Shown in pieces: positions 18,638 to 28,897 of a stretch of 36,571 bases of DNA. The stretch lies in the IMG/VR virus record IMGVR_UViG_3300027741_000010, positions 1 to 36,571 of that record, one strand, 5' to 3'. A model generated the notes under the pieces. That model worked only from the letters and a program-made list of their open reading frames with translations, was not told where the DNA came from and searched no databases. The translations under genes and the position numbers were made by a program. The DNA comes from a virus. Within the stretch, counting starts at the first letter, position 1; each line of letters begins with the position of its first letter.

Positions 18638-19369
18638 TCACATCAACTTTCCATCAAAGGCATAAGTGCCGTGGTGAGACAATTGCACCCAAGGTGCTGC
18701 GTAAACCTTACCGCCATGCAAGCGCCACTGACGGCAGAAGTGATAATCCTCTGACAGCAAACGCTCTGTGCCAGGCTCAATGCTCTCTGTAAAGAACTGG
18801 TAAATACGTTCACGAGGAGCATCTACTTGAGAAAGATCCACTACGTCATTGATATAGCTAGGTGTTTTCTCAATTAACTCATCAAATACTACACGCCTGA
18901 TGAGCATAAAGCCAGTGCCACCTGCCCAGATCTCTAGAGGCTCACCCACTGGAACAGTGACACTGCCAGCATAGTCAATAAGGTTAAGTACCCAAGAGCC
19001 AGTATAATGCTTAAGATTGTTAGGGTCTTCTCCATTTTTAACCCCTTTGGCTACTTGCTGCCAGTTGATTTCTTTCTTCGGATAAATGCCACAAATGATC
19101 TCTTTGTCAGCGTCAATCATAGGTATGACTTGCTCGGCAAAGAACTGAATGTCCGAGTCAATGAAGAAGAGATAGTCCGCATCTGTCTTTAGGAACTGGT
19201 GGACAAGAGCATTACGTCCACGAGTGATAAGGCTTTCGTTCACAAGTACGCTAACCATTGCCTGATGCCCTGCCTGAGCAAAAACATTTTGCAGGTTAAG
19301 AATACTTGTCATGAACATTGCATTACAGTTACCGCCATAACAAGGTGTAGCAATAAATATTTTAGCCAT
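18638..19369 (-). CDS. GT-A fold glycosyltransferase
   Basis: The 243-residue protein begins 'KIFIATPCYGG' (residues 3-13), then 'LITRGRNALVHQFL' (48-60). The metal-binding motif DSD (Asp71 and Asp73) lies in 'YLFFIDSDIQF', followed by 'GTGFMLIRR' and the late 'SEDYHFCRQW', which would hold the catalytic base. This is the pattern of a phage glycosyltransferase group related to Anp1/GT-A enzymes. It is the last gene of the early - strand operon, overlapping the GcrA gene by eight bases. Acceptor unknown; early expression would suit a cell-wall, lipopolysaccharide or DNA target. Confidence 0.85.
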   Translation of the reverse strand: MAKIFIATPCYGGNCNAMFMTSILNLQNVFAQAGHQAMVSVLVNESLITRGRNALVHQFLKTDADYLFFIDSDIQFFAEQVIPMIDADKEIICGIYPKKEINWQQVAKGVKNGEDPNNLKHYTGSWVLNLIDYAGSVTVPVGEPLEIWAGGTGFMLIRRVVFDELIEKTPSYINDVVDLSQVDAPRERIYQFFTESIEPGTERLLSEDYHFCRQWRLHGGKVYAAPWVQLSHHGTYAFDGKLM

Positions 19370-19832
19370 GTCGTAGCTGACCCCTCATATCAAAAACAGG
19401 TTGTTTGTTATAAACTAGCGTAAAATGTTCAGGACACCAGCTTTTCCCAAACATTGTTCGTTTGCCGCAGACCCGTGTATTTTCACCTACTGGTTCCCCC
19501 TCGACCCACTTACACTGACGATTATTTGTATATACAAAAAGAACGCCAGTCGTTTGTTGAGGAGGCTTTACTTCTACAATAGGCTGCACAAACAGTTGCT
19601 TGACAGGTTTTGTTTCTATGACCTGTGGCTTGCGTGGCACTCTCTGTGCAGGCTTCTTAGGCCTGGAGTTCGATAGCCCAGCTCTGTGTATGTAACCTAT
19701 GATAGAGTTTTTAGTTCTATTTAACTTGATAGCAATATCAAGTATGGTTGCACCTTTCTCGTGCATTTCCAATAAAATTTTTCTGTGCTCATCAGGCCAG
19801 ATGGCAGAGGTGACAAACCTGCGCTTGTTCAT
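19362..19832 (-). CDS. gcrA-like: GcrA-type cell-cycle transcription regulator
   Basis: This 156-residue protein matches GcrA at both ends. An N-terminal helix-turn-helix spans about residues 12-55 ('WPDEHRKILLEMHEKGATI' then 'NSIIGYIHRAGLS'). The C-terminal motif shows CKW (Cys107), 'VCGK' (Cys122) and 'SWCPEH' (Cys133, His136), a probable zinc site and sigma-70-contact region. In alphaproteobacteria, GcrA binds RNA polymerase holoenzyme and acts at promoters with CcrM-methylated GANTC. I prefer ATG 19832 (TGATG overlap with the AT-hook gene); GTG 19835 would add one residue. The Pro/Lys-rich linker is typical. A phage copy could redirect host transcription or mimic host timing. Confidence 0.88.
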   Translation of the reverse strand: MNKRRFVTSAIWPDEHRKILLEMHEKGATILDIAIKLNRTKNSIIGYIHRAGLSNSRPKKPAQRVPRKPQVIETKPVKQLFVQPIVEVKPPQQTTGVLFVYTNNRQCKWVEGEPVGENTRVCGKRTMFGKSWCPEHFTLVYNKQPVFDMRGQLRHG

Positions 19833-20005
19833 CACAGCACCTTGCGTGGACGACCACGACCCCTCTTAACCACCTTTTCTTCCTTGGGTGGGCGACCTCT
19901 GCCGCGTGTAATTTTTGCTTCAACGGATGCTTTAAACATTACGTCAGAGATGTAACGCAAAAAGTTGGCAACCTTAATCAGTCGGTTCTGCTCTTCTAGT
20001 GTCAT
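19832..20005 (-). CDS. Small protein with two AT-hook motifs
   Basis: The 57-residue protein joins a helical N-terminal half (about 1-32, possible dimerisation helix) to a tail carrying two AT-hook-type motifs, RGRGRPPK (34-41) and RGRGRPRK (48-55). AT-hooks grip the minor groove of AT-rich DNA. The start ATG overlaps the upstream stop (ATGA) and the stop overlaps the GcrA start (TGATG), so it is translated in line with both. It may be a DNA-bridging or nucleoid-type protein that silences or organises DNA alongside GcrA. The family is not recognised, but the motifs are explicit. Confidence 0.75.
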   Translation of the reverse strand: MTLEEQNRLIKVANFLRYISDVMFKASVEAKITRGRGRPPKEEKVVKRGRGRPRKVL

Positions 20006-20199
20006 GTGACCCTCGCTATATGCTGCTTTAGTTGAATATGAGTTATTGCTTTTAACTTGGTTTGTATGTGTTTCGTTCTCTTGTGTTTCTTTTGTGCCTC
20101 TTTAAGTTGAAGGATTAAAACCTCTCGCTCAGATAGAGGGCGGGGCTTTCTCAAGTCCCTTATAAACCTTTGTATTTTTAGCTTGGCTTTCATAAACAT
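20002..20199 (-). CDS. Small basic helical protein
   Basis: The 65-residue product is strongly basic (many Lys, Arg and His), predicted helical, and starts MFMKAK (a second ATG follows at 20193). It overlaps the upstream resolvase gene by 71 bases, which is long, but its stop overlaps the ATG of the AT-hook gene (ATGA), the coupling seen throughout this operon. It may bind nucleic acid. No family recognised. Confidence 0.5.
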   Translation of the reverse strand: MFMKAKLKIQRFIRDLRKPRPLSEREVLILQLKEAQKKHKRTKHIQTKLKAITHIQLKQHIARVT

Positions 20200-20500
20200 T
20201 CATCAGCTCCCAAAAATCTGACAGACGCATGATGACAATCTCTTCTTCACGGTCTGCTTTAGCTATGACGATTGGTTTCTGTATGCCAGACGCAGCCACA
20301 ATGGCTTGATCTAGCCAGCCGTAGACACGCCCGATGGTGGCGTATCTTTTACATTCAATAAGCCAGCGAGCGAGGTTAATGTCCCCGCCGCTGTCACGAG
20401 TTTGGTTTAAGTTTCGAGCAGCGTCATAGCCCATGCGCTTGAGTTCATTGACTATATCGCGCTCGAACTGGTGACCCTTATTGCGTTGCATTTTACCCAT
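20129..20500 (-). CDS. PD-(D/E)xK nuclease, Hjc-like Holliday junction resolvase
   Basis: The 123-residue protein shows the compact resolvase layout. Glu13 lies in an N-terminal 'GHQFERDIVNEL' helix, then 'RNLNQTRDSGGDI' (Asp40), then 'LIECKR' (Glu49-x-Lys51). These residues form the metal site of the archaeal-type Hjc family. It would cut branched DNA produced by recombination or replication before packaging. Its neighbours encode an SSB-like protein, RecT and the YqaJ exonuclease, so the recombination set is complete. Start and upstream stop overlap (TAATG). Confidence 0.82.
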   Translation of the reverse strand: MGKMQRNKGHQFERDIVNELKRMGYDAARNLNQTRDSGGDINLARWLIECKRYATIGRVYGWLDQAIVAASGIQKPIVIAKADREEEIVIMRLSDFWELMNVYESQAKNTKVYKGLEKAPPSI

Positions 20501-20748
20501 TAAAAGGGAACCTCATTGTCATCACGGCTGACTGGGCGTGGATATTCTTGCTTTGCCTGACCGTCTGGCTTCCAAGTGTTGTGCTTAAGATTGATGCCTT
20601 TATAATCATTATGCCAAGCACTTAGCTTCACTTCTTCACCTGCCTTAACGTCTTCTAAAAGAATAACACCACCAGTAAAATCTGGGTGAGAGGGTGCTAA
20701 TTTCTTGTCGTTTACGCGCAGTGACCCGTAACCTGGTTTTTTAGCCAT
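20500..20748 (-). CDS. Putative single-stranded-DNA-binding protein with SSB-type acidic tip
   Basis: The 82-residue protein is small for an SSB. It is beta-rich with aromatic residues ('LSAWHNDYKGINLKHNTW') and ends 'SRDDNEVPF', very like the acidic DDxxPF tip through which bacterial SSB recruits recombination and replication proteins. Lying directly between RecT and the resolvase strengthens the reading. The OB fold itself cannot be proven by eye. It could also be a RecT accessory factor. Confidence 0.65.
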   Translation of the reverse strand: MAKKPGYGSLRVNDKKLAPSHPDFTGGVILLEDVKAGEEVKLSAWHNDYKGINLKHNTWKPDGQAKQEYPRPVSRDDNEVPF

Positions 20749-21485
20749 TACATTTTCTCCATAATATCTTTATTGACGCTAGATAGTTGCTTCAGGCGAT
20801 CAGTCTTCTCATCGTCTGTAAGTTTTTTAGAGTCCGAGATCCGCTCGGTCAGCTCCATGTAAGCATCGGGCCAACGGTCTTCTTCGACCCACATATGCAC
20901 CTTGCGATCACCGCTTCCGTCTGGGATGTAGAGAGGCAGCTTGCCAGTGTGATCTTCTTCAATCTCCTCAACCAGCTCCATGTGAGCGATCTGCACAGGT
21001 TCTTTGTAAGACTTGTCAAAGTCCATGACCTCCTCGACCGCATAGTGACCAAGGATGCAAGCAGGATAAACACGCCGCACACCTTCAGAGATGACCCGCG
21101 CAGCCAGCATAGCCCTAGGGTAATTCTTCCAGTTGTCCTTTTTGGCAAGCCCGATGTCGTGTGCCTGCTTAAGCGTCCATGCAAGCGTCAGAGTGCCACC
21201 AGCGGGGTGAGAGAACGTCATCTCCACCTTGTCATCAGTATAAGCACCATACTCAACCTTGCCACCAGCAAGCTGAAAGCGGGCAAGAATGGCCTGAGAC
21301 TTAAGCGCAGGACGACCCTGAATGATGTCGTATTCCTGCACAACCGTTGCTGGGTGCTTATTCTCTGCCTGAGCCACAGCCATGATAGCCATGACCTGAT
21401 CCTCAGACTTAAACCCATAAAACCCTGACTTAACAATGGCTTGCGCCATAGACTTCATGTCATTCATTGGAACCAAAGATGTCAT
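20748..21485 (-). CDS. recT: RecT-family single-strand annealing protein
   Basis: The 245-residue protein has the conserved RecT-like core: 'MAQAIVKSGFYGFKSEDQ' (residues 13-30), 'VMAIMAVAQAENKHPATVVQ', 'YDIIQGRPALKSQAILARFQ', 'GGKVEYG' and 'YPRAMLAARVISEGVRRVYP' (about 143-162). It anneals complementary single strands at the ends made by the paired 5'-3' exonuclease (YqaJ-type, 22126-23046). In phages this pair supports recombination-dependent replication, end repair and concatemer formation. A charged C-terminal tail (about 185-245) is probably for partner contact. AGGAAA precedes the ATG. Confidence 0.88.
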   Translation of the reverse strand: MTSLVPMNDMKSMAQAIVKSGFYGFKSEDQVMAIMAVAQAENKHPATVVQEYDIIQGRPALKSQAILARFQLAGGKVEYGAYTDDKVEMTFSHPAGGTLTLAWTLKQAHDIGLAKKDNWKNYPRAMLAARVISEGVRRVYPACILGHYAVEEVMDFDKSYKEPVQIAHMELVEEIEEDHTGKLPLYIPDGSGDRKVHMWVEEDRWPDAYMELTERISDSKKLTDDEKTDRLKQLSSVNKDIMEKM

Positions 21486-21487
21486 GG

Positions 21488-21715
21488 TTATTTCCTATTC
21501 ATTTTTACTAAATTGTAATTTTTGTTTCTGTTAATTCCTGTTTCTGTCCAAGATTGTAATTTCCACTTATTAGTGCTGACACAGTCTTTATAAATTTCCA
21601 AAGCACCATGAACTGAATATTTACCATGCCCATCAATCGCATAAATGCGAACCCAATGACCATCATCAGTTGTGTATCCACTTTCAAGATCAATTAGATG
21701 AGGTTTCTTCGGCAT
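21488..21715 (-). CDS. Hypothetical protein in recombination operon
   Basis: I choose ATG 21715 because GAGGAAG lies just upstream; an in-frame TTG at 21721 is less likely. The 75-residue product has a beta-rich middle ('GHWVRIYAIDGHGKYSVHGAL') and a basic tail. No known motif. It overlaps its upstream neighbour by 26 bases and ends two bases before the RecT start, so it belongs to the same transcript. Confidence 0.65.
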   Translation of the reverse strand: MPKKPHLIDLESGYTTDDGHWVRIYAIDGHGKYSVHGALEIYKDCVSTNKWKLQSWTETGINRNKNYNLVKMNRK

Positions 21716-21908
21716 CTTCAACTTCCTCTTTTGTTAACTCAATGTCGTAAACCTTTGAAATAAAATCCATAATGTCTTTCAAAGGGAATGTGGCTGCTGA
21801 TGACTGATTGCTGTTTGTTACAATCACAGTGATGGTGTCATCACCGTTGTCACAGAACGTCAGCATAGAATGTTTTTCATTAAATAACCGAACTTCTGTC
21901 TTCATCAT
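21690..21908 (-). CDS. Hypothetical acidic protein in recombination operon
   Basis: The 72-residue product starts with two Met codons (21908 and 21905), has a beta-hairpin-like 'NGDDTITVIVTNSN' and ends in an acidic 'KEEVEDAEETSSN' tail. Its start overlaps the upstream stop. It lies between a coiled-coil protein and another unknown gene in the exonuclease-RecT operon and may be an accessory or inhibitor protein. No family recognised. Confidence 0.65.
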   Translation of the reverse strand: MMKTEVRLFNEKHSMLTFCDNGDDTITVIVTNSNQSSAATFPLKDIMDFISKVYDIELTKEEVEDAEETSSN

Positions 21909-22129
21909 TTTTTTGCCCTTTTCCGGTTAGAGGATCTCAAATCGTTGATTTGAGTTTCAAGCAAATCTTTGTTGCGTTCGTATCGCTGGATAAGATCAGC
22001 TTGAACATCAATCCTTTTTTTCAATTCATGTATCTTTTCGTTCAGTTGTTTATTGATTTCTGCTGTAGCGATCATACGCCCCAAAAGAAAATCTGCTGTC
22101 TGAATTGGAACCTCTGTCATCTGTGTCAT
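21905..22129 (-). CDS. Small coiled-coil protein downstream of exonuclease
   Basis: The 74-residue protein is almost entirely helical with a heptad-like charged pattern from about residue 22 ('INKQLNEKIHELKKRIDVQ') to 65, and a basic end ('SSNRKRAKK'). The start overlaps the exonuclease stop by four bases (ATGA). Oligomerisation or nucleic-acid contact is plausible. Function unknown. Confidence 0.7.
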   Translation of the reverse strand: MTQMTEVPIQTADFLLGRMIATAEINKQLNEKIHELKKRIDVQADLIQRYERNKDLLETQINDLRSSNRKRAKK

Positions 22130-23046
22130 TTTACTAAAAACCTCCGTGATCCTGCAGTTTCATCCTTGTATTGCTCGTAAAGTTTAGGATTTTCCTGCTC
22201 AAAACGCTTGGCGTTGAACCGTTTGCTAGGCTTGGCTGTCTTCCATGTGACCAGAATATCACCAGCGACGTTGACCAGCTCTGCCTTGTCAGCCATGTAG
22301 GACATCAATCGAGCCTGAGCGATCTTTTCCTTGTTCTCAAGCTCTTTGATCCTGACCTTAATGTCCTTCAAGGCTTCGCAGTATTCCTCGATCACCTTGG
22401 TAGCAACGATGCTTGAGCCATCGTCCTTGCGATAGATGCTCTGAGCCTGCTCAACCGTCTCTGGGCTTGGCAGCTGACCTGTCTTGTGCATAGCCCACCA
22501 GCCAGCAGCGCGTTGGATGAAGTCTGCCTTCATCTCATCTGTAACATCAATGCGCCACCAACGGAACCGCTGACCACCGAACAGCACGGCAAAGTAAATG
22601 TGAGGCACGTCAAAAACTGTCGCCTCATGGATGCACTGCACAATGTCTTGCTCAGGCAGCTTCGTCCAGTGGTCGTCCATATCTGGGTATTTTTTGAACT
22701 GGTGATCGCCAAAGTTCTTAACCTCCAGCAGACCCTTGTCGCCTGTCCAGAAGTCACCATGTGCGCGAAGCCAAGGCTCGGTCGAGTGTGTGCCTGCTAC
22801 GTCAAGATCACGAACTGATATTCCAGTTGACTCTTCCCATAGCTTCCCGATTGCGCTTTCCAGAAATAACCCCATCTGCACCGCTTCGATGCCTGATAGA
22901 TTAGCGCGTTCTTTTTCGCCCCGCTTCTCCAGCAGCACGTCAAGGAGCTGACCCGAAACTGCTCGCCTCGAATCCGTTGCCCACCACGCACTTTGCCGTT
23001 CTTCTGGCGCAAAGCCTTCTCCGATAATATGTCCACCACTTGCCAT
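22126..23046 (-). CDS. YqaJ/lambda-exonuclease-like 5'-3' exonuclease
   Basis: The 306-residue protein carries the PD-(D/E)xK core of YqaJ-type recombinases: 'GLFLESAIGKLW' (Glu63), 'RAHGDFW' (Asp98) and 'LLEVKNF' (Glu108, Lys110), then 'IVQCIHEATVFDVPHIYFAVLFGG'. A C-terminal helical extension (about 215-306) follows, with basic residues. It resects duplex ends to expose 3' single strands for the RecT protein encoded four genes downstream. It lies two bases from the first gene of the operon, which reads from the strong promoter at 23290-23318. Confidence 0.85.
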   Translation of the reverse strand: MASGGHIIGEGFAPEERQSAWWATDSRRAVSGQLLDVLLEKRGEKERANLSGIEAVQMGLFLESAIGKLWEESTGISVRDLDVAGTHSTEPWLRAHGDFWTGDKGLLEVKNFGDHQFKKYPDMDDHWTKLPEQDIVQCIHEATVFDVPHIYFAVLFGGQRFRWWRIDVTDEMKADFIQRAAGWWAMHKTGQLPSPETVEQAQSIYRKDDGSSIVATKVIEEYCEALKDIKVRIKELENKEKIAQARLMSYMADKAELVNVAGDILVTWKTAKPSKRFNAKRFEQENPKLYEQYKDETAGSRRFLVK

Positions 23047-23047
23047 G

Positions 23048-23266
23048 TTATGCCTCTCCTACTGCTTTGCCGTTTTTAATATCAAAAGCGGCTGATTGAA
23101 TATCAACTTGCAGAAGGTGCAGACCATGCAGAGTATCAGCAAAAACCCCAACCACCTCACGAGGCAGCAAATGCGGATGTAACGCATAAAGCCCGTGCTT
23201 TGCTTGCTCTAGCACTGTGTGCATATTGCTCAAGTGCTGTAGATTTTGTTCAACTTCTTTTTTCAT
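23048..23266 (-). CDS. Small helical protein, first gene of recombination operon
   Basis: The 72-residue protein is helical and His/Leu-rich ('LSNMHTVLEQAKHGLYALHPHLLP'), with no membrane segment or catalytic motif. It is the promoter-proximal gene of the - strand operon, with an AGAGGGTC motif six bases before ATG. First position implies high and early expression. Function unknown. Confidence 0.7.
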   Translation of the reverse strand: MKKEVEQNLQHLSNMHTVLEQAKHGLYALHPHLLPREVVGVFADTLHGLHLLQVDIQSAAFDIKNGKAVGEA

Positions 23267-23289
23267 AGTAGCGACCCTCTAGGACTATC

Positions 23290-23318
23290 TTAATATATTA
23301 TATTATTAGACCTGTCAA
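23290..23318 (-). promoter_or_regulatory. Sigma-70 promoter of the leftward recombination operon
   Basis: On the - strand, a perfect TTGACA (23318-23313) is followed after 17 bases by TATTAA (23295-23290). A transcript would begin near 23283, a short leader before the ATG at 23266. The spacer is almost all A and T. It is the best match to a housekeeping promoter that I see in the window, in keeping with immediate-early use of host RNA polymerase. Confidence 0.75.
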
Positions 23319-23327
23319 CCAAGTTGA
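23315..23327. promoter_or_regulatory. Palindromic operator candidate between divergent promoters
   Basis: The sequence TCAAC-CAA-GTTGA is a perfect 5-3-5 palindrome. Its left half overlaps the -35 box of the leftward promoter and its right half overlaps the -35 box of the rightward one. A dimeric repressor here would block both. The adjacent rightward gene encodes a ribbon-helix-helix protein, the natural candidate binder. This is inference from position. Confidence 0.55.
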
Positions 23328-23352
23328 TAAATTATTTTACTTGTGCTAAAAA
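23324..23352 (+). promoter_or_regulatory. Rightward promoter for the RHH regulator
   Basis: TTGATA (23324-23329) and TAAAAA (23347-23352) are separated by 17 bases, with a TGTG just before the -10. The transcript would start near 23359, giving a leader of about 25 bases to ATG 23385, which has GGAG upstream. It is weaker than the opposing promoter by consensus match. Confidence 0.55.
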
Positions 23353-23384
23353 TTAGTCACCTTAACTTAAACATGGAGACTAAA

Positions 23385-23597
23385 ATGTCCGATCAACTTG
23401 TTAGAAAATCTATGCTTTTTCCTGAGACACTGTGGACTGAAATCGAGGATTTCCGTTTCGACAACCGCATCAAATCTGACGTTGAGGCTATTAGGCTTTT
23501 GATGAAAGCTGGCTTGCATTTTATTAAATTGCAGCAAGACGACCAGTTTGCACAAGCTGAGCAGGAAGCTGTGGAGCGTCTTAACGCACAGGGGTAA
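23385..23597 (+). CDS. Ribbon-helix-helix DNA-binding regulator
   Basis: I start at ATG 23385, preceded by GGAG; an in-frame TTG at 23343 lies within the promoter. The 70-residue protein has a short N-terminal strand (about 4-12, 'QLVRKSMLFP'), helix A ('ETLWTEIEDFRFDN') and helix B (about 31-45, 'DVEAIRLLMKAGLHF'), the Arc/MetJ-like plan, plus a Gln/Glu-rich helical tail. Such proteins bind short palindromes as dimers through the strand. The operator candidate lies about 60 bases upstream. It likely controls itself and the divergent recombination operon. Confidence 0.75.
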   Translation: MSDQLVRKSMLFPETLWTEIEDFRFDNRIKSDVEAIRLLMKAGLHFIKLQQDDQFAQAEQEAVERLNAQG

Positions 23598-23600
23598 GCC

Positions 23601-24185
23601 ATGCGGTGGTTCAGGCTTTACGATGACGTTCTGAACGATCCAAAGGTGCAGAGGCTGAGCGGTGAGACGTTCAAGCTCTGGATCAACCTGCTTTGCATCG
23701 CGAGCAAGCATGGTGGCGTTCTGCCTAGCCTTGACGATTTGGCTTTCCAACTACGTCTGCCAGCACTGGTTTGCAAAACTGAAATAGACACTTTGAAATC
23801 AGCTGGATTGATAGACGGAGACAAGAAGCTAAAGCCTCATGGTTGGGACAAAAGGCAATATAAATCAGACACTTCTACTGAACGAGTGAAGCGTTTCAGG
23901 GAACGCTGCAGAAACGCTCCAGAAACGGTGAATGAAACAGTGCCAGATACAGATACAGAAGCAGATACAGAAACAGAAACAAAACAGAGCATAATCTTTC
24001 CTTTGGATGGAACGATTGCTTATAGTCATTGGGCTGACAAGGTCAGGGCAACTGGCAAGAACATAGATCCAGACTTTGTGGCCTCTGGTTTTAGGAAATG
24101 GGCAAGGTCTAAGGATATTCAATTCGATGACAAGAACATCGAAAAGATATTCTTAAGCTTCCTTAAACACCAGAGAGCCTCATAA
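23601..24185 (+). CDS. Replication initiator / replisome-organizer-like protein
   Basis: The 194-residue protein opens with a winged-helix-type domain (about 1-85: 'MRWFRLYDDVLNDPKVQRLS', 'FKLWINLLCIASKHGGVLPS', 'LAFQLRLPALVC'). Then come 'DKRQYKSDTSTERVKRFRER', an acidic low-complexity linker DTDTEADTETETK (about 115-128) and a C-terminal domain ('FVASGFRKWARSKDIQFDD'). This is the layout of phage replisome organizers that bind the origin and hand a helicase-loading job to host proteins. It is the only replication gene I can see. AGGGGTAAGCC precedes the ATG. Confidence 0.75.
   Translation: MRWFRLYDDVLNDPKVQRLSGETFKLWINLLCIASKHGGVLPSLDDLAFQLRLPALVCKTEIDTLKSAGLIDGDKKLKPHGWDKRQYKSDTSTERVKRFRERCRNAPETVNETVPDTDTEADTETETKQSIIFPLDGTIAYSHWADKVRATGKNIDPDFVASGFRKWARSKDIQFDDKNIEKIFLSFLKHQRAS
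23944..23979 (+). repeat. Tandem hexamer repeat inside the initiator gene (possible origin element)
   Basis: Six consecutive hexamers read CAGATA, CAGATA, CAGAAG, CAGATA, CAGAAA, CAGAAA, encoding the acidic linker of the initiator. An AT-richer stretch follows. In lambda-like phages the origin lies in the middle of the initiator gene, with repeated binding sites and an AT-rich side. Here the repeat is short and may only reflect the low-complexity linker. Confidence 0.45.
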
Positions 24186-24250
24186 ACGCACAGAAACGGC
24201 TCTCCAGCGGCTTTCGTGGGGGTGGGGAGCTACTACCCTACCCGCGAGAC

Positions 24251-24281
24251 AAAAAAAGACCTCCAGAGCGGATCATGGAGG
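24251..24281 (-). terminator. Rho-independent terminator of the leftward small-gene cluster
   Basis: On the - strand, CCTCCA (24281-24276) pairs with TGGAGG (24265-24260) around a 10-base loop, and the run TTTTTTT follows (24257-24251). It lies after the last small gene of the 25867-24325 cluster and stops that transcript before it meets the convergent initiator gene. The surrounding 24186-24324 stretch holds no other convincing gene. Confidence 0.8.
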
Positions 24282-24324
24282 CCAAGTCAGGGAGGAAAAC
24301 ACCAGCAAGAGGCTGATCTGTTTG

Positions 24325-24438
24325 TTATACACCCATGCGCGACGTGCTGCAACCGCAAAGCGTGATGGATAACAGCATTGCCAAGCTTGAGTAAAAGATG
24401 AACAAGGCTATCCAGTCTCGAATGTCATCCTTATGCAT
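24325..24438 (-). CDS. Very small membrane or lipoprotein-like peptide
   Basis: The 37-residue ORF begins on an ATG overlapping the upstream stop, with AGAGGA a few bases before it. A charged start (MHKDDIRD) is followed by one hydrophobic span (about 9-30) ending LCGCST. That could be a membrane anchor or a weak lipobox with Cys30 as the modified residue. It might be an outer-membrane spanin-like or superinfection peptide. Support is the ribosome site, the operon position and the terminator just behind it. Confidence 0.5.
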   Translation of the reverse strand: MHKDDIRDWIALFIFYSSLAMLLSITLCGCSTSRMGV

Positions 24439-24784
24439 GATCATCCTCTGGTGGTGCGAGGGATTGCATCAGGTCGTGCTCGATCTTGGCGAGCGTCTCA
24501 TCCTCAACTTTGACCTGCTCAACTGTTCCAGACAAGAGACCGTAAAGTCCCATGATCTCTAGCATGTTATTGATATTGCTAGGCTTCACAGAAACCTTAG
24601 CCTCCAACAATGCCAAGTGCATCTGGATAGCCTCGGAAACCGAGACCACCCTGTTGAGCTTCAATGTCGCAATGCTGGCAGCTTTTTCCCACAGCACATC
24701 TTGCTTGCCGTAGTGATATTCACTTGTGCTTTGTGCATGTGAGACGTTTACGAGTGCTTCATCCAATGTCATTTTATCCCCCAT
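24431..24784 (-). CDS. Hypothetical helical protein
   Basis: The 117-residue protein is mostly helical with mixed charge ('MTLDEALVNVSHAQSTSEYH', 'LNRVVSVSEAIQMHLALLEAK') and an acidic C-terminus ending 'EDDHA'. No membrane or catalytic motif. Start and stop overlap with both neighbours, so it is part of the leftward small-gene transcript. No family recognised. Confidence 0.7.
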   Translation of the reverse strand: MGDKMTLDEALVNVSHAQSTSEYHYGKQDVLWEKAASIATLKLNRVVSVSEAIQMHLALLEAKVSVKPSNINNMLEIMGLYGLLSGTVEQVKVEDETLAKIEHDLMQSLAPPEDDHA

Positions 24785-25041
24785 TATGCTACTTGTGACG
24801 CTTGTTCAGACAGCATGATATGCGCTATTTGCTCATAATCAGCACATTGAACGAATTTCTGTGCATACACCTTCGCATGACCATCCTCTGTTGTCATATC
24901 CAACCAAGCTAGGACATAGCAGCGCAAGACCTCAGCAGTTTCCCCTATGGTGAGACCTTCCCACCCCATATCTGCTAAGCCAAGTCCCTCAATATGATCT
25001 GTATAAACCATATATGTTTCTATATTTGACCAACCGTTCAT
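24784..25041 (-). CDS. Hypothetical acidic protein
   Basis: I choose ATG 25041, preceded by the AGGGGTC ribosome-site motif, giving 85 residues. The upstream in-frame extension would run through the small gene at 25064-25228. The product is acidic, with Trp and Tyr residues and an amphipathic C-terminal helix ('YEQIAHIMLSEQASQ'). Function unknown; early anti-host proteins of this size are common in such clusters. Confidence 0.7.
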   Translation of the reverse strand: MNGWSNIETYMVYTDHIEGLGLADMGWEGLTIGETAEVLRCYVLAWLDMTTEDGHAKVYAQKFVQCADYEQIAHIMLSEQASQVA

Positions 25042-25063
25042 TGTAGTGACCCCTTCTCGATCG

Positions 25064-25228
25064 TTATATTGTTTGTTTCTTAATGCTATCATTAAGAGCA
25101 TATAAATATTCTAATATAGGAACAACTTTGTATTTATCTAAGTTGATCTTCTTGGTTAGCTTCTCGTTAAACGTCTCAAACACTGCCTTGCCTGTAGCTA
25201 TTTCAACAATTACCCATGATTTTGTCAT
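25064..25228 (-). CDS. Small basic-acidic mixed protein
   Basis: The 54-residue ORF starts MTKSWVIVEIATGKAVFETF, has a Lys-rich middle and ends KKQTI. AAGGGG lies a few bases before ATG. It fits between its neighbours without overlap, in line with the rest of the cluster. Its short beta-hairpin-like start resembles many small phage early proteins. No family recognised. Confidence 0.6.
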   Translation of the reverse strand: MTKSWVIVEIATGKAVFETFNEKLTKKINLDKYKVVPILEYLYALNDSIKKQTI

Positions 25229-25242
25229 TTTAATCCCCTTCT

Positions 25243-25440
25243 TTACGCCAGCAATTCTGCTGTGCGATAATTTGATAATTCTGATTTACGAACAAAACGA
25301 ATTAAACCGTTGTGATCGCCGTTTTTTTGAACAAAACTAACCCAAAGCCAATCTGGTGACCAAGAAAGGCGATCAACAATGATAACCATGATTTTACCAG
25401 TGTGCATTGCATAGTCAGCAACATTATATGTTTTTGTCAT
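25243..25440 (-). CDS. Hypothetical small beta protein
   Basis: The 65-residue protein is beta-rich ('GKIMVIIVDRLSWSPDWLWVSFVQ') with basic residues toward the end ('RFVRKSELSNYR'). A TATATAAT-like stretch and AGAGGG lie upstream on the - strand, so it may also have its own promoter in the 25441-25475 gap. Function unknown. Confidence 0.65.
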   Translation of the reverse strand: MTKTYNVADYAMHTGKIMVIIVDRLSWSPDWLWVSFVQKNGDHNGLIRFVRKSELSNYRTAELLA

Positions 25441-25473
25441 AACAGTGTTTTCCCTCTGTATATATTATATATA

Positions 25474-25572
25474 TTAACCAAAGACTACCATGCACCAGTA
25501 GCAAAGATAGCACCAGATGATGAGACCAAGCGTGGCGAAGAGACTGTCGAGGATGGTTTCTGTATGTTTCAT
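25474..25572 (-). CDS. Very small single-TM, Cys/Trp-rich membrane peptide
   Basis: The 32-residue ORF (MKHTETILDSLFATLG at its start) is hydrophobic from about residue 10 to the end, with three Cys, two Trp and two Tyr in the span, so it is a single membrane segment with an outward or inward tail of only a few residues. It begins just after the upstream gene's stop. Such minimal membrane peptides in early clusters can act in superinfection exclusion or membrane disturbance. Evidence is composition and position only. Confidence 0.45.
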   Translation of the reverse strand: MKHTETILDSLFATLGLIIWCYLCYWCMVVFG

Positions 25573-25573
25573 G

Positions 25574-25867
25574 TTATGCAGCCTCTACGTCATAAGCATC
25601 GACAAGAAACTGCTCAGCAGCCTCTTTTGTTGCAAAGACTGTCCACTCTGTGCAATCGAGATAGCCAGGCATTGACAAACGAGCACCATAGCCATCGACA
25701 ATGCTAGTTTCCCATACTTTGCCATCATAAAATGGTTGCACGTCAGAAACAGATGGTTGCATCGTGCGAAGATTAGGATTTGAGTAGACAACATCAAAAG
25801 GAACAAATGTGATGCCGTTTGTGCCGTCGATCTCGATCCAACGAGTATAAATGATTTGTGGTTGCAT
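25574..25867 (-). CDS. Hypothetical protein, first gene of leftward small-gene cluster
   Basis: The 97-residue protein is beta-rich with several Tyr and Trp ('IIYTRWIEIDGTNGITFVPF') and ends in 'EQFLVDAYDVEAA', a probable helix. AGGAG lies before the ATG, and a promoter with a palindromic spacer sits about 20-50 bases upstream. First position suggests strong early expression. No family recognised. Confidence 0.7.
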   Translation of the reverse strand: MQPQIIYTRWIEIDGTNGITFVPFDVVYSNPNLRTMQPSVSDVQPFYDGKVWETSIVDGYGARLSMPGYLDCTEWTVFATKEAAEQFLVDAYDVEAA

Positions 25868-25887
25868 AGTGTTCTCCTATATATTTA

Positions 25888-25917
25888 TATATATATGATC
25901 ATTATTGATCATGTCTA
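25888..25917 (-). promoter_or_regulatory. Promoter of leftward small-gene cluster with palindromic spacer
   Basis: On the - strand, TAGACA (25917-25912) and TATATA (25893-25888) are 18 bases apart. The spacer contains a 7-bp inverted repeat, ATGATCA-TTAT-TGATCAT (25895-25912), made of two TGATCA palindromes. A protein bound there would block RNA polymerase. The binder is unknown; the site differs from the TCAAC palindrome at 23315. Confidence 0.5.
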
Positions 25918-26273
25918 TAATCTATATCATTATATGATTATGATCAAGATAATATTATATAGGTAAGAATACTTATTTACATAATATGTGTGTTAAATAT
26001 ACCAGCAGGTTAATTCACAGAAGGTTTATGTGATTTACTCTCCCCGTGCGCCGTCAAATGTGAATTAGGGTCGCCCTGTGATGACCATGCTTAACATGGG
26101 CTTGGATGCTTTGAAGCCTCTAGATCCTGTTTTATATTAATATAAATACATGATGATTAGTGATGGTATGTGATGATATGATTATATACGGATAGGACGG
26201 CTAAACGGGATGCGTTGGGCCAAGGGGGGCGGTGTGGGCGTGCACCCCACCTTGTTCACCCCAAAAAAATTTC

Positions 26274-26302
26274 TTGGTTGTTTTTATTTAATCGGTTATA
26301 TG
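26274..26302 (+). promoter_or_regulatory. Promoter for the 26310 gene pair
   Basis: TTGGTT (26274-26279) and TATATG (26297-26302) are 17 bases apart. The predicted start of transcription (about 26308-26310) falls on or just before the ATG at 26310, and no ribosome site is visible there. The mRNA may therefore be leaderless. Confidence 0.45.
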
Positions 26303-26309
26303 GTGTTGT

Positions 26310-26540
26310 ATGGTTATACAGATTGATAAACATATTCCGGTTAACAAGTTTCTGAAGCGTGCGCGGAAGCATCAGTATCCATTTGCACAGATGGATCCTG
26401 GCGATTCGTTTTACGTTGAGGGTGATTTGGGTGTTTGCCAGACGGTTAGGACGCTGATGTGGCGTTTTACGAAGGAGACTGGCTGGAAGTTTGTGACCCG
26501 TCGGGATGAAGGTGGGTTGCGTGTTTGGAGGGTTAGTTGA
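26310..26540 (+). CDS. DUF7303-like phage protein
   Basis: The 76-residue protein has the pattern 'YPFAQMDPGDSFYV' (about 23-36), then 'RTLMWRFTKETGWKFVTRR' and a final 'GGLRVWRVS', which I associate with a small phage family (DUF7303, from memory). It is basic and may bind nucleic acid. No ribosome-binding sequence precedes ATG; see the promoter just upstream. Its stop overlaps the next start (TGATG). Confidence 0.7.
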   Translation: MVIQIDKHIPVNKFLKRARKHQYPFAQMDPGDSFYVEGDLGVCQTVRTLMWRFTKETGWKFVTRRDEGGLRVWRVS

Positions 26541-26761
26541 TGTTAGACTTTGACAAGCCGATAGATCGGAGGATCAATATCTTGACCTCTCAGATCTTTG
26601 AGATGATGTCGGGTGACGGTGCTGTGATTAGTATGGAGAGTTGCAAGCGTTTAGCTCAGAGCTGGGTGACTTGCGAGGACCGTGCTTATTACCGTGGTCG
26701 GCATAAGGAAGTTGAGAAGTTGCGTAGATTGATGGAAGACGTTTGGTCGGCTGAGGTGTGA
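26540..26761 (+). CDS. Hypothetical helical protein
   Basis: The 73-residue product starts at ATG 26540 within TGATG. It is mainly helical with mixed charge ('RRINILTSQIFEMMSGDGAV', 'KEVEKLRRLMEDVW') and has two Cys. It is the second gene of a two-gene + unit that ends at a hairpin directly on its stop codon. No family recognised. Confidence 0.65.
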   Translation: MLDFDKPIDRRINILTSQIFEMMSGDGAVISMESCKRLAQSWVTCEDRAYYRGRHKEVEKLRRLMEDVWSAEV

Positions 26762-26786
26762 GGGGGATTTCTCCCCCTTTAGTTTT
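26761..26786 (+). terminator. Intrinsic terminator of the 26310-26761 unit
   Basis: AGGGGGA (26761-26767) pairs perfectly with TCCCCCT (26772-26778) around a four-base TTTC loop, followed by a TT-A-G-TTTT tract. The first base of the stem is the last base of the stop codon. It separates the + unit from the convergent acidic-protein gene. Confidence 0.75.
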
Positions 26787-27027
26787 AGGCGTATTCTTCT
26801 TCCGACCAGTCGTCATCTTCGTCTTCATCGTCTTCCAGATCTTCATCTTCTGGGTCGATGTCGTCTTCATAGTCAATGAGATCATAGATTTCTGAGACGA
26901 GGAGGTATGCAGCGCCAAGACGCTCGATCAGTGACATTTCCATGAAGTCGGCTGATGGCTGGAAGGTTACTTCATCCACACCGTCGTCAGATTGCGAGAG
27001 AACAGCAGTACCAATTACGAGAGCCAT
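26785..27027 (-). CDS. Small protein with very acidic C-terminal tail
   Basis: The 80-residue protein has a short globular part (about 1-48) and a tail (about 52-80) in which most residues are Asp or Glu. AAGGAG stands seven bases before the ATG. Such acidic tails can mimic DNA and block restriction, nucleoid or polymerase proteins, or bind basic partners. No named family. It is a single-gene unit convergent with the 26310 pair. Confidence 0.7.
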   Translation of the reverse strand: MALVIGTAVLSQSDDGVDEVTFQPSADFMEMSLIERLGAAYLLVSEIYDLIDYEDDIDPEDEDLEDDEDEDDDWSEEEYA

Positions 27028-27085
27028 AGTAATCTCCTTTGGAGGGTTTGTAGACGGTTCCTAAGATATATTTATTATATGAATA

Positions 27086-28021
27086 TTAGAATACATATTT
27101 GTTACGGAAGGCTGGTCGGCCACGGATCATCTCGCAGAACTCTGGTGGCATGAGATTGTTTTCTTCGTCAAATGTTAGGAAAACGAAGCCAGCGCATTGC
27201 CTGTTTGGAGCACCTTCTGTGTATTCGAACTGCGGTCCCCACGGATCTGCTAACATTCCGCACTCGATACCATAATGCGAGCCACGACGGTTCCTGACGG
27301 CTGTGAGCTGGAGATGGTGGGTATGGGATGTGACAATGTTGATGCCTGAGTGCAGGGCGTTGTTCCATGCGGTGTGGATACCACCACGGAAGCGGTGCCG
27401 GATCTCGACTTCGTTGATGACGGCTGCCCAGCAAAATTCCCATTCTGGGAAACGGTCTTTGATGCGGCCTGCGTAGTCCTCTAGCTCTGGGGCTGCTGAG
27501 GCTAGATAGTTATCTACACGGATGTCGTGGTTGCCCATCGTCCAGATTTTATGTGCGGAGAGGGGGAGCATTTTAAGATGCTCTCTGACGGCTTCAACTT
27601 CTTGAGAGATCTTGGGTGCTTTGGAGCCGAGAGGTCTACCGTGACGGGAAACTCTAGCGCCGTCGAGAATGTCGCCGTTAAGGACGATGCAGTCTGGCTT
27701 GAGTTGCTTGGCTACCTTGGCAAAGGCTTTCCACATAATGGTTGGCTCGCCAGGCCAGATGTGGGCATCACCGCCAACAAGAACTGTTTTAATGTCTTTT
27801 TCTGGTGAGTAGATCGGTGGTACAACCCATTCAGTTGGTTCTAATTGTTGGTGTTTTTGATCGAATAGATGAGGGAAAAACTCTTTGGCTTTGCCAAGTT
27901 GCTGTCTGATTGTAGATCTTGGTATATTGAGTTGGAAGCCAGTGGCCCTTGCCGAGCCTGTTTTGTTGTAAACATTTATGACGTGAATGAGATGTTCATC
28001 AGGAACAGGTCTGGAAGACAT
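27086..28021 (-). CDS. Metallophosphoesterase with N-terminal helix-turn-helix
   Basis: I choose ATG 28021 (AAGGA upstream), giving 311 residues; an in-frame TTG at 28039 would extend it by six. Residues about 9-45 form a helix-turn-helix ('VINVYNKTGSARATG', 'IPRSTIRQQL'). From about 78 the calcineurin-like metal site is complete: 'GGDAHIW' (Asp85, His87), 'LNGDILDG' (Asp117), 'GNHD' (Asn164, His165), a later 'GGIH', and 'SHTHH'. It would hydrolyse a phosphodiester in DNA, RNA or a nucleotide. The HTH fusion suggests targeting to a DNA site. A promoter lies upstream (28052-28080). Confidence 0.82.
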   Translation of the reverse strand: MSSRPVPDEHLIHVINVYNKTGSARATGFQLNIPRSTIRQQLGKAKEFFPHLFDQKHQQLEPTEWVVPPIYSPEKDIKTVLVGGDAHIWPGEPTIMWKAFAKVAKQLKPDCIVLNGDILDGARVSRHGRPLGSKAPKISQEVEAVREHLKMLPLSAHKIWTMGNHDIRVDNYLASAAPELEDYAGRIKDRFPEWEFCWAAVINEVEIRHRFRGGIHTAWNNALHSGINIVTSHTHHLQLTAVRNRRGSHYGIECGMLADPWGPQFEYTEGAPNRQCAGFVFLTFDEENNLMPPEFCEMIRGRPAFRNKYVF

Positions 28022-28051
28022 TTTAAAATCCTTAGGCAATTAAGGGTTTGC

Positions 28052-28080
28052 AATATAAACTTTTTTTCTGTGTAGGTAAA
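28052..28080 (-). promoter_or_regulatory. Promoter for the HTH-phosphoesterase gene
   Basis: On the - strand, TTTACC (28080-28075) and TATATT (28057-28052) are separated by 17 bases, leaving a leader of about 25 bases to ATG 28021. The -35 is only a partial match. It stands back to back with the tRNA promoter. Confidence 0.5.
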
Positions 28081-28112
28081 ATGACACAAACTTTAATTTG
28101 TTAAATTATTTG

Positions 28113-28141
28113 TTGCATATTGTTGTTCTGATAGTTATTTA
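28113..28141 (+). promoter_or_regulatory. Promoter before tRNA-Arg and the late unit
   Basis: TTGCAT (28113-28118) and TATTTA (28136-28141) are 17 bases apart, placing the transcript start at about the first base of the tRNA (28150). It could serve the tRNA alone or also feed glycosyltransferase, terminase and the following late genes, since I see no terminator between them. Confidence 0.5.
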
Positions 28142-28149
28142 TATGTGAC

Positions 28150-28226
28150 GCGCTTGTAGCTCAACTGGATAGAGCGTCGGTCTACGAAACCGAAGGTTGG
28201 AGGTTCGAAACCTTCCAAGCGCACCA
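28150..28226 (+). tRNA. tRNA-Arg (anticodon ACG), CCA encoded
   Basis: The 77-base cloverleaf is complete. The acceptor stem GCGCTTG/CAAGCGC closes with encoded ACCA. A D-arm, an anticodon stem TCGGT/ACCGA with loop CTACGAA (anticodon ACG) and a T-arm with TTCGAAA follow. It reads CGU and, after A34-to-inosine editing by host TadA, CGC and CGA. CGT is the visible favourite Arg codon in the virion genes. No integrase accompanies it, so I see no sign of attachment-site use. Confidence 0.95.
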
Positions 28227-28240
28227 ATAGAGGGGTTCAC

Positions 28241-28897
28241 ATGAGAGTTCACACACTGGCTTGGCCTGACGTTGATACGAGGGTAATTAACGCACATGAG
28301 AGTGTAATTAAGCATTTTGGTCTGAGTGCTTGTTATTATCGGATTCACATGCCGCATGGCGCGTGGATGGACAAGGTTTGCAAAGATGAATTTGAGACGG
28401 GTGCGGAGGTTGTTTGTTTTCTGGAGATCGACTGCGTTCCGACCTGTGAGACAATTATGGCTAGGACGTATCGCTGGACGAAAGAGAATCGGGGGGTTCT
28501 TGGCATTGCTCAAAGTGCTAACCACCTTGATCCTCGTCACATTTATGCTGGCCCGCCTTTTCTTATGGTTCACCGTGATGCTTGGAAGAAAGTGGGCGTT
28601 ACCTTTTCTGAACAGCCTGATTCTGACACGGCACAATTCTTTACCAGAACTGCTGAGAAATTGGGTCTGCCTATTCGCTGCATATATCCTACTCACTACC
28701 TATATCCTGCCGATGAGGGACGATGGGCTTTGGGCAATTATGGATTTTTTGGGCGCGGCACTTACTATAGCGGTGGGGTGTTTCACATGTTTCAGGGTCG
28801 CACAAACAATGCGATCAATACTTTCGTAGACGTGTGTGATAAGATTGTCACAGGACATTTTTCCACTGGCGGCTGGTATGAAAGTGCAAAGCTATGA
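28241..28897 (+). CDS. Glycosyltransferase-like protein (nucleotide-sugar GT-A type)
   Basis: The 218-residue protein has an N-terminal alpha-beta start, a metal-site-type motif 'CFLEIDCVP' (Glu62, Asp64), a middle 'YAGPPFLMVHRDAWKKVG' that often shapes the acceptor pocket, and a late 'GGVFHMFQGR'. It resembles phage glycosyltransferases in which the DxD motif is relaxed to ExD. AGAGGGG precedes the ATG. The last bases overlap terminase (ATGA), so it is expressed with packaging genes. Substrate unknown. It is the third glycosyltransferase-like gene in this small genome. Confidence 0.7.
   Translation: MRVHTLAWPDVDTRVINAHESVIKHFGLSACYYRIHMPHGAWMDKVCKDEFETGAEVVCFLEIDCVPTCETIMARTYRWTKENRGVLGIAQSANHLDPRHIYAGPPFLMVHRDAWKKVGVTFSEQPDSDTAQFFTRTAEKLGLPIRCIYPTHYLYPADEGRWALGNYGFFGRGTYYSGGVFHMFQGRTNNAINTFVDVCDKIVTGHFSTGGWYESAKL

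Follow-up and report, generated by a model that had tools for sequence, protein, structure and literature searches.

This locus raises the question of whether a small phage encodes its own version of GcrA and, if so, to what use such a protein would be put. Host GcrA acts at GANTC sites methylated by CcrM (PMC3667746, PMC7403470), where it helps RNA polymerase to start transcription at methylated promoters (PMC7403470, PMC7987155). The window, by which we mean the whole stretch of DNA analysed, is a 36,571-base virus record from a small freshwater phage (~36 kb). An open reading frame on its minus strand (19362–19835) specifies 157 amino acids from a GTG codon or 156 amino acids from the ATG at 19832, and the original prediction described its product as GcrA, a master cell-cycle regulator. 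The gene and its domains are as follows.

19362–19832, minus strand: gcrA-like gene, 156 amino acids from ATG, alternative GTG start at 19835 (PF07750, PDB sequence matches, conservation in seven other contigs).
19674–19796, minus strand: DNA-binding (HTH) domain, residues 13–53 in ATG numbering (AlphaFold, Foldseek, alignment).
19398–19538, minus strand: C-terminal domain, residues 99–145, with Cys107, Cys122, Cys133 and His136 (5yix_B sequence match, alignment).

The protein is laid out as an HTH (residues ~13–53), a Pro/Lys-rich linker (~54–98) and a C-terminal sigma-contact-like domain (~99–145). Caulobacter crescentus GcrA (7ye1, 7ye2, 5yix, 5yiu) likewise consists of an HTH, a linker and, as judged by sequence, a corresponding C-terminal Cys3His domain, shares the HTH fold, and matches the phage protein from end to end. 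The PF07750 (GcrA) profile matched with 55.4 bits (E 1.2e-14; gathering cut-off 26.9 bits), residues 13–145 aligning with positions 3–148 of 155, and a six-frame search of the whole record identified this reading frame as the single matching place. By phmmer, full-length Caulobacter GcrA (7ye1_G) was matched at an E of 3.7e-10 (query 13–147 on chain 3–156) and the sigma-interacting domain (5yix_B) was matched separately at an E of 6e-4; the DNA-binding domain alone (5yiu) gave a weak match (E 0.27). A profile built from the phage proteins recovered 7ye1, 5yix and 5yiu at 1.8e-17, 2.2e-6 and 1.9e-5, respectively, and hhalign gave a probability of 99.2% when the phage alignment was compared with Caulobacter GcrA. 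AlphaFold modelled the HTH confidently (pLDDT 81–89 for residues 11–50), and the best PDB match of the HTH model by Foldseek was the GcrA DNA-binding domain 5yiu (probability 1.00, TM 0.81 by target, rmsd 1.5, 33% identity). The C-terminal domain was poorly modelled with either 8 or 16 sequences, GcrA (7ye2) coming ninth in a PDB search with the second, 16-row model, so its predicted identity as the GcrA sigma-interacting domain rests on sequence. Cys107, Cys122, Cys133 and His136, invariant in 16 of 16 aligned phage proteins, possibly form a metal site. These data indicate that the window protein is a member of the GcrA family, strongly diverged yet intact. The family assignment of the original prediction is thus confirmed by the profile match, the end-to-end alignment and the DNA-binding fold; the Cys/Cys/Cys/His motif lies at exactly the residues it had named, and the profile search it had proposed as a check extended over both domains.

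There are also phage proteins of 81–93 amino acids (L174:1593–1874, L175:4010–4255 and L176:3989–4243) in which the Cys3His module known from the C-terminus of GcrA is followed by an extension and no HTH is present. Their matches to PF07750 are weak and below the cut-off, and the L175 protein had no match in annotated phages. They are candidates for a stand-alone sigma-binding module.

The divergence of the window protein from cellular GcrAs reaches both the recognition helix and the sigma-contact domain. It is approximately 31% identical to Caulobacter GcrA, and was compared with 31 cellular GcrAs, namely that of Caulobacter and the 30 that best matched the phage query, a sample biased towards query-like sequences. 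The phage protein keeps 16 of the 26 positions invariant in this sample, including Trp3, Asn34, Gly38, His41 and Arg42 (Caulobacter numbering) and all four residues of the Cys/Cys/Cys/His motif. The ten changed positions are Thr4, Trp15, Lys39 (Tyr/Phe), Leu43 (Ala/Ser), Arg48, Pro121, Phe130, Phe132, Tyr142 and Ala150. Lys39 corresponds to Tyr47 in the window protein, Leu43 to Ala51, and Arg48 to Ser56, just beyond the HTH domain; Pro121 is replaced by Val, Phe130 by Thr and Phe132 by Val, and the sigma-contact domain thus has both its WP and its FxF motif changed. Lys39, in the recognition helix, is Tyr or Phe throughout the close clade of phage proteins and in a more distant relative, G020 (which has Phe39, Ser43, Ile121 and Thr130 in Caulobacter numbering), whereas the GcrAs of phages phiCbK and Ssp-JY42 retain both Lys39 and Pro121. 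The DNA specificity of the window protein is therefore likely to be altered, the recognition-helix Lys that is invariant in the sampled cellular GcrAs being changed together with its neighbours. With only 16 of 26 invariant positions kept, both sigma contact and DNA contact may be weakened. The GcrA equivalog family NF050816 requires 280 bits, and the protein scored 48.7; for this reason and because of the ten changed residues it is not a GcrA equivalog, and the title of master cell-cycle regulator was an overstatement. A PHROGs search returned mostly HTH-type or unknown families, with no GcrA family among the matches.

The gene lies within a minus-strand operon that runs from a RecE/YqaJ-like exonuclease through small ORFs and recombination genes to gcrA and a glycosyltransferase; terminase, portal, capsid, tail and lysis genes are on the plus strand. 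In order of transcription, the neighbours of gcrA are as follows.

22126–23046, minus strand: RecE/YqaJ-type exonuclease (PF09588, 25.7 bits; phrog_434, E 7e-50).
20748–21485, minus strand: RecT-like annealing protein (PF03837, 20.2 bits, under its cut-off of 24; RecT-like at the homologous place in Gordonia phage GMA1).
20500–20748, minus strand: single-strand-binding-like protein (phrog_18154, E 1.8e-4).
20129–20500, minus strand: PDDEXK/RusA-like nuclease (PF24608, 33.1 bits; phrog_244, E 1e-21).
20002–20199, minus strand: 65-amino-acid ORF, common to G020 (56%).
19832–20005, minus strand: 57-amino-acid protein with two AT-hook-like RGRGRP motifs (PF02178, 21.3 bits).
18638–19369, minus strand: glycosyltransferase-like gene (phrog_34859 glycosyltransferase, E 4e-7; phrog_1574, E 1e-41).

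The stop codon of the AT-hook gene overlaps the gcrA ATG (TGATG), and the glycosyltransferase-like gene directly downstream overlaps the end of gcrA by 8 bases. Such overlaps of start and stop codons suggest that the genes of the operon are coupled, and the neighbouring recombination genes suggest that gcrA is probably expressed early. The glycosyltransferase-like gene has a copy (50–63% identical) in 12 of 12 other genomes compared; DNA alignable with the AT-hook gene was found only in a 99% relative (L006) and was missing in L003 and L007. Elsewhere in the window, a tRNA-Arg(acg) at 28150–28226 (plus strand) is shared with G020 and L028 and was found in none of the other near-complete relatives. 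An AT-rich non-coding stretch at 25868–26300, with several TGATCA-type inverted repeats and partly conserved in L007, is a possible origin or operator.

Close homologues of the gcrA-like gene are present in seven other IMG/VR contigs (68–99% identical), and a further set of IMG/VR contigs contains homologues of 26–30% identity. Pairwise dN/dS within the close clade was mostly 0.07–0.24 where defined, the exception being one near-identical pair; the gene is thus under purifying selection and the reading frame is no chance match. PF07750 matched 7 of 48 records searched, six of which had been fetched because of GcrA, the seventh being G020, found via its capsid. The G020 copy is 30% identical and occupies the same operon position, between the RecT/nuclease genes and the glycosyltransferase. 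GcrA (PF07750) was absent from the 11 other near-complete genomes compared, and GcrA-less relatives have other small ORFs in the slot, some of which resemble winged helix-turn-helix proteins by eye. Among these 11 are the nearest annotated genomes, the uncultured Manatee Spring phages MW202825 and MW202753 (terminase 74%, portal 64–70% and capsid 87% identical), which share the RecT, exonuclease and glycosyltransferase genes of the window but lack GcrA, have other small genes in its place, and show GANTC depletion that is absent or weak. gcrA is therefore accessory in this ~35 kb phage group, with a constant position in the operon; an IMG/VR capsid scan found at least 590 relatives of the group, and no isolate of it was found in the collection searched. 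In the tree, the close clade and G020 sit on a long branch (100/100), the attachment of which to the cellular GcrAs the tree does not settle.

Phage GcrA was reported in 2012 in phiCbK-like phages with a very similar hypothesis, phiCbK gp222 being proposed to act like GcrA and raise host replication and division genes during infection (PMC3556154). GcrA has also been described in two further cases, Agrobacterium phage Atu_ph08 (PMC6630229) and a phage genome associated with coral, which a CRISPR spacer ties to a Rhizobiales bin (PMC11309003). No functional test of any phage GcrA was found in the literature examined. The known proteins (phiCbK gp222 and those of other Caulobacter phages, Brevundimonas phages, Rhizobium RHph_X2_24, Phaeobacter MD18, Ssp-JY42 and Atu_ph08) resemble ours in being phage-encoded, and their sampled genomes are also GANTC-poor; the window differs in its genome of ~36 kb and in the long branch and residue changes described above. 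No match to the window protein was found among 50,697 annotated phage records at E < 0.01. The novelty is accordingly modest, the window protein being a new and unusual member of a kind already published.

The distribution of GANTC sites bears on which promoters the protein could serve. The window contains 54 GANTC sites, compared to 116 expected from a dinucleotide shuffle, 101 from an order-2 simulation and 77 from a synonymous codon shuffle (z −4.0). The depletion includes the region of gcrA and the recombination operon.

19160–28340, no strand: GANTC-depleted, probably early region (4 sites, 26.8 expected from local order-2 composition).

The sole GANTC in the listed intergenic gaps, at 26403, is inside a small ORF, and the GANTC sites upstream of other window genes sit within upstream coding sequence. 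These data argue against GANTC-driven phage promoters, and the earlier suggestion that the protein might drive phage promoters is not supported for this site. When 13 near-complete genomes of the group are ranked by the ratio of GANTC to the synonymous shuffle, the two that carry GcrA come lowest (0.70 and 0.74; others 0.78–1.12). The chance of this ranking is 1 in 78 if the genomes are independent, and they are related; the GcrA-less G025 follows closely (0.78, z −3.4). Known GcrA phages avoid GANTC more strongly than the window does, at 0.02–0.36 of expected in sampled stretches of three GcrA phages and a fourth with an N-terminal match. Because CCGG, GGCC, AACGTT and AAGCTT are depleted in the window as much as GANTC or more, restriction avoidance may explain part or all of the GANTC depletion. 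A PF01555 (N6_N4_Mtase, CcrM-type) profile search found no methyltransferase in the window or G020, ruling out a phage-encoded CcrM in the window.

Other sites show patterns of their own. The window has no AACGTT, of which 14.4 would be expected, no GACGTC (9.1 expected) and just two copies of AAGCTT (15.5 expected). CCSGG is also absent (23.5 expected) and CCWGG occurs 50 times; in the loci compared (the window, L011, L012 and L104–L123), CCSGG is likewise absent from G026, G034 and G040, and MW202753, G016, G028 and G032 have 0–1 CCWGG and many CCSGG. This split suggests that, within a single phage group, two alternative restriction specificities are being avoided. The GcrA-carrying relative G003 encodes a 242-amino-acid PF01555 DNA methyltransferase (L007:2734–3462, minus strand), nearest in the PDB to DpnA (4e-21) and more weakly similar to CcrM (8e-10).

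The original prediction also held that GcrA identifies the host group, and this stands as a probable class. Caulobacter GcrA is matched by 33 annotated phages: 30 have Caulobacter, Brevundimonas, Phaeobacter or Sinorhizobium as host, two carry a Synechococcus label and one is unassigned. Since phages with GcrA nearly all infect Alphaproteobacteria, the host is probably a freshwater alphaproteobacterium; nothing finer follows. Three other lines were discarded. Capsid relatives occur in four MAG contigs (Balneolaceae, two 'beta proteobacteria' and one alphaproteobacterium), two of which span about a whole phage genome, so the binning is no host evidence. The tRNA-Arg best matches Alphaproteobacteria at 88–89%, as against 84% for the class to which the beta bins belong, too weak a difference; and the best cellular GcrAs are 30–38% identical, with a tree lacking resolution. 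The Ssp-JY42 GcrA lies at L156:39370–39981 (minus strand), in a genome with GANTC at 0.33 of expected, and the true host of the Synechococcus-labelled phages may be an alphaproteobacterium in the culture.

We consider the best explanation, at a probability of about 0.5, to be a sigma-70 cofactor of the GcrA family, encoded by the phage, that redirects transcription in the host with an altered DNA specificity. The protein would be translated from the recombination operon, probably early; its C-terminal Cys3His domain would bind domain 2 of the host sigma-70 and its N-terminal HTH would bind DNA, shifting the choice of RNA polymerase among host promoters. A role in host transcription appears most likely because the sigma-contact motif and HTH fold are kept, the gene is under selection and the intergenic DNA is essentially free of GANTC, this last feature also being why action on host rather than phage promoters is preferred. 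A faithful mimic of host GcrA, acting at methylated GANTC promoters to raise replication and division genes during infection, is unlikely. It would account for the retention of the HTH fold and of W12, N42, G46, H49 and R50, a GANTC-poor genome would hold such a protein off the phage DNA, and it is the proposal made for phiCbK (PMC3556154); the loss of Lys39 in the whole clade and G020, when phiCbK and Ssp-JY42 keep it, the loss of P121, F130 and F132, and the failure at the equivalog cut-off all count against it.

An inhibitor that competes with host GcrA by occupying sigma-70 domain 2 without productive promoter binding, thereby weakening GcrA-dependent promoters, is less probable again. Across phages, conservation is highest in the Cys/Cys/Cys/His module, proteins with that module alone exist, and the candidate DNA-contact positions are changed, but the HTH has a confident fold and strong conservation in the clade, and a pure titrator would not need it. 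We give similarly low odds to the idea that the protein activates phage promoters at some non-GANTC site. The changed recognition helix would fit this role, as would the position of the gene in the recombination operon, in a phage that has conserved AT-rich stretches of non-coding DNA; few short intergenic gaps are available for such a site, and a search, not a rigorous one, found no candidate.

Returning to the sigma-70 cofactor with altered specificity, a tentative extension, which we regard as doubtful, is that the Tyr/Phe-for-Lys subfamily of phage GcrAs gave up recognition of methyl-GANTC for a new DNA specificity, and that carrier phages keep their early DNA free of GANTC, barring host GcrA/CcrM. 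Phage GcrA is known mainly from large phages of Caulobacter, and the window protein adds a compact group that is abundant in IMG/VR. With its sigma-contact motif kept and its recognition helix changed, it offers a natural variant with which to separate the two functions of GcrA, and the association between carrying GcrA and avoiding GANTC provides a link, open to test, between the composition of phage genomes and DNA methylation in the host.
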